From: Sulfurimonas autotrophica DSM 16294
GTDB lineage: Bacteria > Campylobacterota > Campylobacteria > Campylobacterales > Sulfurimonadaceae
Length of the DNA stretch: 64,000 bases
Direction: 5' to 3'
Assembly (NCBI RefSeq): GCF_000147355.1
Contig: NC_014506.1
Location: forward strand, 930,001-994,000
In this document: in pieces, positions 50,367 through 52,482 of the stretch
Position numbering within the stretch: position 1 is the first letter of the stretch
Layout of the letters: the number at the start of each line of letters is the position of its first letter
Position numbers and translations under genes: made by a program
Notes under the pieces: generated by a model
Seen by the model: the letters and a program-made list of their open reading frames with translations, nothing else
Told to the model about the DNA's origin: nothing
Database searches by the model: none

Positions 50367-50388
50367 AAGTTTATCTTCTACCTCTGTT
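50357..50388. terminator. Bidirectional hairpin over both stop codons
   Basis: AACAGAG-TAGAAG (50357-50369) pairs with CTTCTA-CTCTGTT (50375-50388) over 13 positions, with one bulged C and a five-base loop. The stem contains the TAG of the DUF302 gene and the loop side contains the TAA of the helicase gene, so it can serve both. Confidence 0.65.
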
Positions 50389-51624
50389 ACTATTTCTTCC
50401 GCGGGAATTTCCACTTCTGGGCTTATTCCTTGCACCACGATTCCCACCCATATTGATAGGTTCTGCTTTTATGCTTGGATCCGGTTTAAAACCTTTTAGC
50501 CATACTTTTGGTATGTCTTTTTTTATGAGTTTTTCTATATTTTGTAAAAATTCATCTTCATCTACACATACAAGTGAAATAGCTTCTCCACCATTACCTG
50601 CACGTCCTGTTCTACCGATTCTATGCACATAATCTTCACTTACATTTGGAAGTTCATAATTGATTACATGTGGAAGCTGGTCAATGTCTATACCTCTTGC
50701 TGCAATATCAGTCGCCACCAAAACGCGTACGTCACCTTTTTTAAAATCAGCTAACGCTTTTGTTCTTGCATTTTGACTTTTATTGCCGTGAATTGCAACA
50801 GCAGTTATGCCGTCACTTTCAAGTTGTCCGCTTAAACGGTTAGCGCCGTGTTTCGTTCTTGTAAAGACTAAAACTTGTTGCCATTTCCCTTCATTGATAA
50901 GGTGTGTTAAAAGTTCGCGTTTACGTGTTTTATCTACATGATAAACGGCTTGTTTTACAATCTCGCTAGAAGTATTTGCACGAGCCACTTCTATGAGTTT
51001 TGGGGCATTTAAAAACTGGTTTGAGAGTTTTTTTATTGCATCAGAATAAGTTGCAGAAAACAGTAGTGTCTGTCGCTGGTTTGGAATAATGTTTAAAATC
51101 TTTTTGATGTCGTTTATAAAACCCATGTCAAGCATTCTATCTGCTTCATCAAGTATGAGATATTCAACTTCACGCAGATCAATAGTTTTTTGTGAAATAT
51201 GATCAAGCAAACGCCCCGGTGTTGCTATGACTATATCCGTACCTTTTCTCAAGTTTGAAATTTGAGGGTTTATTTTGACGCCGCCAAAAATCACAGTAGA
51301 TTTAAAAGGTAAATGTTTACCATAAAGTGCAACACTTTCGCCGACTTGTGCAGCTAGTTCACGTGTTGGTGTAAGAATTAATGCTCTTATTTTATGTTTT
51401 TGTTTTGTAGGTTTTTCTCGTGAAAGAAGTTCTAAAAGTGGCAGTGTAAAACCTGCTGTTTTTCCCGTCCCGGTCTGCGCACCTGCTAAGATGTCTTTTT
51501 TTTCTAAAATTACCGGAATTGCTTTTTGTTGGATTGGAGTAGGTGTATTATATCCTTGCTCTTTGATGGCCTTTAAAATCGGAGCCGATAAACCGAGTGA
51601 GTTAAATGTAGTTTCTTTTTTAAT
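50371..51624 (-). CDS. rhlE: RhlE-type DEAD-box RNA helicase, probably starting at ATT
   Basis: About 417 residues. Q motif [12 protein letters not shown], Walker [25 protein letters not shown] as [27 protein letters not shown] and [10 protein letters not shown] are all present, then a short basic R/G/N-rich tail. The frame runs unbroken upstream of the first common start (GTG at 51294, which would remove the first four motifs) to a TAG at 51636-51634. Between these, the only plausible initiation site is ATT at 51624, with AGGA seven bases upstream. A frameshift or base error in the A-run before it would also explain this. Confidence 0.88.
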
Positions 51625-51729
51625 CGTTTTTTCCTAATGAAGGCTTTTGCCTTTTGTGTATTCTTTCATAATAGCATAATTTATGGCAATTGTGGGTATA
51701 ATTTCAAAAATACTTTTATAGGACACCAA

Positions 51730-52482
51730 ATGCCTGCAGATACAATCTCAATTAAACCAAACAATCACCGTATTTATCAATGTCCAAATGATAAAAAATC
51801 AGACCTTTTAGATAAACTAATTCAAGAAAATCCAAATGCAGATATTTTGGTAATGTGTTCTAAAAATCCTCAGCAAATCAAAGAAAAACTTCAAAATAAA
51901 GATGTGCGTGTCATTGAAGACAAGGAACTTATCAAAGAGAAAGATTTAACATGTGAGTATCTTATCAGCTATGATATGCCGATAAAAGCCATCGTTTATA
52001 TGGCAAGAGTCTCCAAAGCTGTCCAAAAAGCTGTAATGCTTTTGGATGAGAGTGAACAAAAAGCACTTCATTCGATAGAAACACTACTCGGGCGTGCAAT
52101 TAAACAAGAACGCATTGAAGGTTTTGAGTATGAAGTAAAAGAGAGCAAGAAACCAGCAGAACACACAAAGAAAAAGCTCTCCAAAGATGAAATCAAAGAG
52201 GTTGCCAAAAAGCGTTATGAAAGTTCTACACAGGAAAAACCAAAGTTTGACAAACCAAAGCGTGACTTTAAAAATGATGACAAAAAAGATGATAAATGGG
52301 CGAAAAAGAAAAAATCACCTAACAAATTTTTAGGCAAAGATGAAAATGGAAAAGCAATATTTTCAGGTAAAAGCGGTGAGAGAAATCATCGTCATGACGG
52401 TACACCACGTGATAAATATGATGCACCTAAAGTTACAGGTAAAAAAATAAATATCAAAGCTCGCAAGCCAAAAGAAGATTAA
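51730..52482 (+). CDS. Degenerate helicase C-terminal-domain protein with basic tail
   Basis: A protein of about 250 residues starting at ATG 51730, with AGGACACCAA upstream. Residues about 40-135 align by eye with the C-terminal RecA-like domain of the neighbouring RhlE: DVRVIEDKELIKEKDL with [24 protein letters not shown] with VINYELP, and HSIETLLGRAIKQERIEGFE with [19 protein letters not shown]. The motif VI segment HRIGRTGR is replaced by MARVSKAV and there is no ATP-binding half. The last 100 or so residues are very rich in K, D and R. It is likely an RNA- or helicase-associated protein without ATPase activity; function unknown. It diverges from rhlE. Confidence 0.8.
   Translation: MPADTISIKPNNHRIYQCPNDKKSDLLDKLIQENPNADILVMCSKNPQQIKEKLQNKDVRVIEDKELIKEKDLTCEYLISYDMPIKAIVYMARVSKAVQKAVMLLDESEQKALHSIETLLGRAIKQERIEGFEYEVKESKKPAEHTKKKLSKDEIKEVAKKRYESSTQEKPKFDKPKRDFKNDDKKDDKWAKKKKSPNKFLGKDENGKAIFSGKSGERNHRHDGTPRDKYDAPKVTGKKINIKARKPKED

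Follow-up and report, generated by a model that had tools for sequence, protein, structure and literature searches.

PRA2, a conserved single-domain pseudohelicase family and a possible partner of the DEAD-box helicase RhlE in Sulfurimonas and its relatives

PRA2 (pseudo-RecA2 protein with a basic tail) is a real, conserved and so far unnamed pseudohelicase family, represented by one intact gene in the window, i.e., the 64,000-nucleotide stretch of the Sulfurimonas autotrophica DSM 16294 genome (2,153,198 bases) that was analysed here. Since PRA2 is the RecA2 half of a helicase alone, has lost its working parts and is nevertheless kept intact, usually in genomes that also carry RhlE, it is probably a non-enzymatic helper in RNA remodelling. 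The favoured reading, to which a probability of roughly 0.45 is given, is that PRA2 acts alongside the DEAD-box helicase RhlE as its non-catalytic partner; the rhlE gene faces away from that of PRA2 across a short intergenic region. The features of the locus are as follows:

51730..52482, + strand: PRA2 gene, an intact coding sequence of 250 codons plus stop
51720..51723, + strand: ribosome-binding site AGGA, 6 nt before the PRA2 ATG (from the sequence; a similar AGGA occurs in relatives)
51697..51702, + strand: putative PRA2 -10 element TATAAT (from the sequence and its fixed spacing to the rhlE -10)
51730..52134, + strand: degenerate RecA2 domain, PRA2 residues 1-135 (AlphaFold2 model, structural match, gap placement, invariant residues)
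52135..52302, + strand: linker, PRA2 residues 136-191, variable, of low complexity and rich in K, E and D (homolog alignment; pLDDT below 50 at residues 173-194)
52303..52479, + strand: conserved C-terminal basic motif (KFLGKDENGKAIFSGKSGERNHR.DG ... INIKARKPK), PRA2 residues 192-250 (alignment of 20 rows; family f1 only)
50371..51624, - strand: rhlE, encoding an intact DEAD-box RNA helicase of 417 aa (Pfam DEAD and Helicase_C; RhlE NCBIfam model, E 1e-198)
51668..51676, - strand: putative extended -10 of rhlE (TGCTATTAT), back to back with the PRA2 promoter (from the sequence and its fixed spacing)

The PRA2 frame is open from the ATG at 51730 to the stop at 52480-52482, and, together with the AGGA at 51720-51723, this bears out the intact gene with a ribosome-binding site that had been described in the first-pass annotation. 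The listed open reading frame starts further upstream, at 51637; the ATG at 51730 is the start conserved among relatives.

The same annotation had aligned PRA2 by eye with the C-terminal domain of RhlE. The alignment is correct: it is weak between the two sequences (BLASTP of PRA2 residues 77-133 against RhlE residues 322-383 gives 24% identity and E 0.002 in a two-sequence comparison) but far beyond chance by profile, with an hhalign probability of 96.3% (E 1.9e-9) against RhlE RecA2. The proposed RecA-like fold is equally well founded. In an AlphaFold2 model based on an alignment of 33 homologs, residues 11-130 have block pLDDT values of 85-94, and the top Foldseek matches of this confident model are RecA2 domains of DEAD-box proteins. 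The best solved match is the second domain of B. subtilis YxiN (2hjv_B; Z 16.6, 1.5 A over 120 residues, VIA-align), and the 50 best PDB entries (Z 13.9-16.6) are all DEAD-box helicases or complexes containing one; several of the matching entries are complexes of RecA2 with a peptide. A search of the PDB with the 33-sequence profile points to the same domain, in particular to YxiN/DbpA RecA2 (2hjv_A, E 1.2e-6) and MJ0669 (E 1.6e-5). In a Pfam scan of PRA2, nothing exceeded the cut-off (the best match, E 0.13, is due to chance, and the DEAD model matches the neighbor instead), and NCBIfam yielded sub-threshold helicase matches only.

Within this fold, most of the working parts are gone. PRA2 has a single RecA2-like domain in 250 residues, and RecA1, with its Q motif, motif I (P-loop) and DEAD box, is absent, as had been recognized when the protein was said to lack the ATP-binding half. 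When PRA2 is aligned with RhlE RecA2 by hhalign, about 26 residues are missing from PRA2 where RhlE has the motif IVa strand and helix (HGN...Q..R), and motif V is reduced to the invariant D64 (alignment and hhalign). The segment YMARVSKA aligns with RhlE motif VI, of which Y90 and R93 are left and from which the arginine fingers have disappeared; ARVSKA thus stands where RhlE has HRIGRTGR, in line with the replacement by a non-catalytic sequence that had been noted in the window. R93 is the sole residue of the motif that is invariant in the 33 homologs, all of which share K9, C18, K23, D64, D82, R93, E109, E117, R122 and Q126, and the mean column identity of the domain is 59% over 33 rows. 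In DEAD-box proteins, motifs IVa and V contact RNA and ATP, and the parts that are missing from PRA2 normally hold RNA and the phosphates of ATP. Their loss should leave the domain inactive. With neither RecA1 nor motif IVa nor arginine fingers, it should not bind and hydrolyze ATP in the manner of a helicase. Judged by its helicase-related fold and the inactivating changes in its motifs, PRA2 is a pseudohelicase, of which the RecA2 half only is present.

PRA2 is found in 186 of the 228 genomes of family f1, the family of the window, at E <= 1e-13 (124 of the 139 good-quality ones) and in 15 of its 18 genera. A search of 398 genomes of the order gave 41 strong matches, at E 3.4e-30 or below; all of them lie in family f1, and the next match follows at 3.9e-12. 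No strong match was found outside family f1 in these 398 genomes, and the suggestion that the gene pair might be conserved across Campylobacterota is therefore not borne out. Of the weaker order-wide matches, the 11 that were retrieved belong to a second family, SHORT2 (see below); most others have frames whose length suggests an active helicase. All 13 loci that bear a name among the matches in the genome collection are from Sulfurimonas; the plasmid collection contained no match to PRA2. The frame lacks internal stops in nearly all of the listed homologs, and omega, estimated by NG86 for pairs of homologs and for domain and tail separately, ranges from 0.025 to 0.207 in the domain (21 pairs) and from 0.033 to 0.257 in the tail (20 pairs, those that allowed its computation); for RhlE, 16 of the pairs give 0.033-0.100. 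PRA2 is accordingly under constraint, in many cases weaker than that on RhlE. Purifying selection therefore acts on both domain and tail, and the view that the gene is maintained rather than decaying is confirmed by its occurrence in 186 of 228 family genomes and by an omega well below 1 in all computed pairs. A fold other than RecA-like and a set of relatives with only degraded copies were both looked for, and neither was found.

The origin of PRA2 was addressed with a tree of 34 RecA2 domains, in which PRA2 (100/99) and RhlE (100/98) each form a clade. PRA2 lies outside the RhlE clade; descent as a copy of the facing rhlE is thus rejected, and a reading of the gene as a remnant of that helicase is not supported. 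In the same tree, 11 rows of active helicases are split from PRA2 plus SHORT2 with a support of 96/94, and PRA2 and SHORT2 form separate clades (97/94 and 100/99). The branches are long, and the grouping of the two families is tentative. By hhalign, SHORT2 is the closest relative of PRA2 (probability 98.6%, E 7e-16). It is a protein of about 200 aa with a full-length RecA2 domain, a lost motif VI and a short basic tail. No dedicated family model for PRA2 was found in Pfam or NCBIfam, and in Pfam SHORT2 matched only the generic Helicase_C, whose cut-off was passed by both members scanned. Both families have a single RecA2 domain without RecA1 and have lost the fingers of motif VI; unlike PRA2, from which the segment is missing, SHORT2 retains HGNHR and a TTD motif V. 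It was found in seven of 298 genomes of the order, an eighth match lying in a 449-codon frame that was taken for a full helicase, and its distribution over four families of the order is patchy (e.g., L123:4983-5585; L095-L105). The genome of the window also has a copy, in a cluster whose gene names, except that of the helicase, were assigned by eye:

C1:1168482-1169081, + strand: SHORT2, in the cluster DEAD-box helicase - membrane protein - SHORT2 - tex

The genomic context points to a link between PRA2 and RhlE. In a set of loci from 82 genomes, one of which had too little flanking sequence, PRA2 and rhlE are divergent neighbors in 54 of the 81 usable cases and are not neighbors in the other 27. 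Eleven of these genomes had been chosen because the listed coordinates showed adjacency (six of them belong to three further genera, g96, g97 and g101), and without them the divergent arrangement is seen in 43 of 70. In 28 of 47 rhlE upstream regions, the PRA2 TATAAT and the extended -10 of rhlE (TGnTAnnAT) stand back to back at exactly 26 bp; in the others, the distance is 25 bp (one region) or 35-54 bp (five), or one element is lacking (13). One of the 47 regions (L099) belongs to a different helicase, and the strict promoter pattern occurs in two of the 11 loci chosen for adjacency. As judged from the sequence, simultaneous occupancy by two polymerases should not be possible where promoters overlap in this way. 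E. coli and Salmonella are reported to have bidirectional promoters (PMC12825309, PMC10268837). Fixed spacing is, however, also what each promoter by itself would demand, and this counts against an inference of partnership from the spacing. In 15 loci without an adjacent RhlE, no other neighbor recurs throughout (by eye), although close relatives share neighbors.

Several loci depart from the arrangement in the window. In two genomes (G011 and G062; loci L041 and L069), PRA2 adjoins lpxB as it does in the window, and rhlE, whose product is 81-82% identical to RhlE of the window, lies elsewhere. In G065 (L057:2589-4597), PRA2 is separated from rhlE by two genes directly upstream of it, the start of one of which resembles a DNA cytosine methyltransferase (by eye). 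A long inverted repeat, each arm of which spans about 26 bases, was noticed by eye in the PRA2-rhlE intergenic region of G628 (L149:1237-1296); it draws chance microRNA matches.

The start of rhlE is itself unusual. Neither ATG nor GTG nor TTG occurs in frame close to the beginning of the gene; an in-frame ATT at 51624-51622 (- strand) with AGGA ahead of it is present instead. ATT takes the place of the ATG of relatives in nine of the 47 rhlE upstream regions, those of the window's clade, two of which have an in-frame ATA further upstream; this substitution suggests that rhlE may start at AUU. An AUU start is known for infC. Genera g97 and g101 have a conserved stretch in the rhlE leader, CAGCGC..TTCGGTCTGCGACTGAC (L147, L148 and L150; less clearly L145 and L146). 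Located between the rhlE -10 and the start, it could pair with a later AGACCG; it has no Rfam match at gathering score and possibly acts as an RNA element in regulation. In the window's clade, some rhlE leaders seemed by eye to contain a hairpin that others lack, and this candidate was dropped. For seven loci, Rfam gave matches below the gathering score only.

PRA2 and RhlE also tend to occur together. The RhlE ortholog was called present at a best match of about 1e-140 or better (a paralog of 50% identity reaches about 4e-128), and a helicase encoded near tex, called present at about 1e-100 or better, served as the control. Of 228 genomes, 166 have both PRA2 and RhlE, 20 have PRA2 only, 11 have RhlE only and 31 have neither (Fisher p 6e-16, from counts that ignore shared ancestry). 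The corresponding figures, likewise with shared ancestry ignored, are 116/8/4/11 (p 1e-8) for good genomes and 49/3/2/6 (p 4e-5) for good genomes outside the window's genus. In good genomes, the odds ratio of association with PRA2 is 39.9 for RhlE versus 4.9 for the control helicase, and in those of at least 2 Mb the p values are 0.0004 versus 0.27; a logistic fit gave standardized coefficients of 1.08 for RhlE, 0.09 for the control helicase and 1.07 for genome size. Outside the window's genus, however, the association of PRA2 with the control helicase is just as strong (42/10/0/8, p 1.7e-5). Small genomes tend to lose both PRA2 and RhlE, and adjacent genes can vanish in one deletion, which weakens the co-occurrence as evidence. 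The presence of PRA2 follows that of RhlE also in genera whose PRA2 and rhlE genes lie apart. Taken from genome sequences, the divergent pairing, the overlapping promoters and the co-occurrence provide circumstantial but real support for a link between PRA2 and RhlE, and they likewise lend circumstantial weight to the earlier proposal that PRA2 could modulate its neighbor.

As a partner of RhlE, PRA2 would use its folded domain as a protein-docking module for RhlE or for a client of RhlE, such as a ribosome-assembly particle or an RNA-decay complex, and its basic tail would hold RNA. It might thereby tether or recruit RhlE to RNA, or tune RhlE activity by activation or inhibition, and the two proteins would act on the same RNA substrates. 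Known helicases offer some precedent. In E. coli, according to passages of PMC3814787, the regulator RraA binds the RecA2 domain of SrmB; in the related H. pylori, RNase J and a DEAD-box helicase that has a role in rRNA maturation form an RNA-decay unit, as described in part of PMC5874925. These cases indicate that RecA2 domains of helicases can be docking sites, without showing the same for PRA2. In the work on H. pylori, helicases were also surveyed in 28 Epsilonproteobacteria, and three partial sequences of the N-terminal region were called annotation errors; the passages of that survey consulted make no mention of stand-alone C-terminal helicase domains (PMC5874925). A narrower proposal likens PRA2 and RhlE to pseudokinase-kinase pairs: the two would be a dedicated pseudohelicase-helicase pair, in which PRA2, pared down to a RecA2 domain and a tail that holds RNA, controls or targets a single specific DEAD-box helicase and the overlapping promoters are mutually exclusive. 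This proposal is somewhat unlikely.

The tail bears on the strongest alternative, namely that PRA2 is an independent RNA-binding protein (an RNA chaperone or ribosome-associated factor) that serves the same process as RhlE, e.g., ribosome assembly or growth in the cold, without contacting it; the tail would then bind RNA, with RecA2 as a scaffold. Residues 136-250 (115 residues) carry a net charge of +18, as opposed to -2 for the slightly acidic domain, and the last 59 residues, with a mean column identity of 65% over 20 rows, are about as conserved as the domain. The first-pass annotation was thus right about a long basic tail, but not in presenting it as something that merely remains. Both the conserved basic character of the tail and the persistence of PRA2 in the 20 genomes without detected RhlE, four of which are at least 97% complete (G111, G126, G129 and G275), favor the independent role. 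The repeated divergent pairing with overlapping promoters speaks against it, as does the tail itself: in some members (G011, G016, G062 and genera g4 and g7) the tail motif is missing, short or different, and it is therefore dispensable, whereas the domain is always kept. On balance, an independent RNA binder is somewhat unlikely. Further searches with the tail motif gave no Pfam match in any of 20 PRA2 members and nothing better than E 0.64 in the PDB, and the predicted structure of the tail alone is of low confidence (pLDDT 69.4, pTM 0.27). Among 298 genomes of the phylum, the tail was matched in 16, each of them a member of family f1. Its presence on other proteins was considered and rejected, as the only two matches outside PRA2 genes (E 0.009) lie in 32-codon frames of G254.

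An inhibitory role as a decoy, in which PRA2 would mimic RecA2 of RhlE and compete with it for RecA1, for RNA or for a RecA2-binding partner, is improbable. The retained fold would suit such a role, and RecA2 is a known protein-docking surface, as the SrmB-RraA interaction (passages of PMC3814787) and the RecA2-peptide entries of the PDB illustrate; however, the side that faces RecA1 and RNA (motifs IVa, V and VI) has been deleted or lost, which disfavors competition for either. That PRA2 is a neutral or decaying fragment, a piece of helicase fold without catalytic motifs kept by chance beside rhlE, is barely credible in view of the open frames in nearly all listed homologs, an omega well below 1 and the occurrence in 15 of 18 genera.

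A non-catalytic partner of RhlE would be of broader interest, as very few pseudohelicases have so far been described in the open-licence literature. A single-domain RecA2 pseudohelicase that is conserved in most of one family and linked to a named helicase offers a small, testable model for the control of an active helicase by an inactive helicase domain. Searches of the open-licence literature returned nothing on Sulfurimonas DEAD-box helicases, stand-alone C-terminal RecA domains or N-terminally truncated, degenerate DEAD-box proteins, and nothing related on a catalytically inactive paralog as a pseudoenzyme.

Among known systems, the RecA2 half of RhlE-type helicases shares with PRA2 the fold, the order of strands and helices, the pattern Y-D-x-P ... 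Y-x-x-R around motif VI and the closing GF[EK]; PRA2 differs in the absence of RecA1, motif IVa and arginine fingers, in a motif V reduced to one Asp and in its own conserved tail. Utp25, a pseudohelicase of the yeast and human SSU processome, resembles PRA2 in its helicase fold, vestigial motifs and disordered appendage, and its authors consider a possible role as a helicase cofactor; unlike PRA2, it retains both RecA domains, is eukaryotic and is reported to be essential (passages of PMC9539457). Finally, PriA of Deinococcus radiodurans is, like PRA2, a bacterial relative of helicases that has been described as lacking helicase activity, but it is much larger, belongs to a different helicase family and acts in the restart of DNA replication (PMC4504706, PMC9539457).
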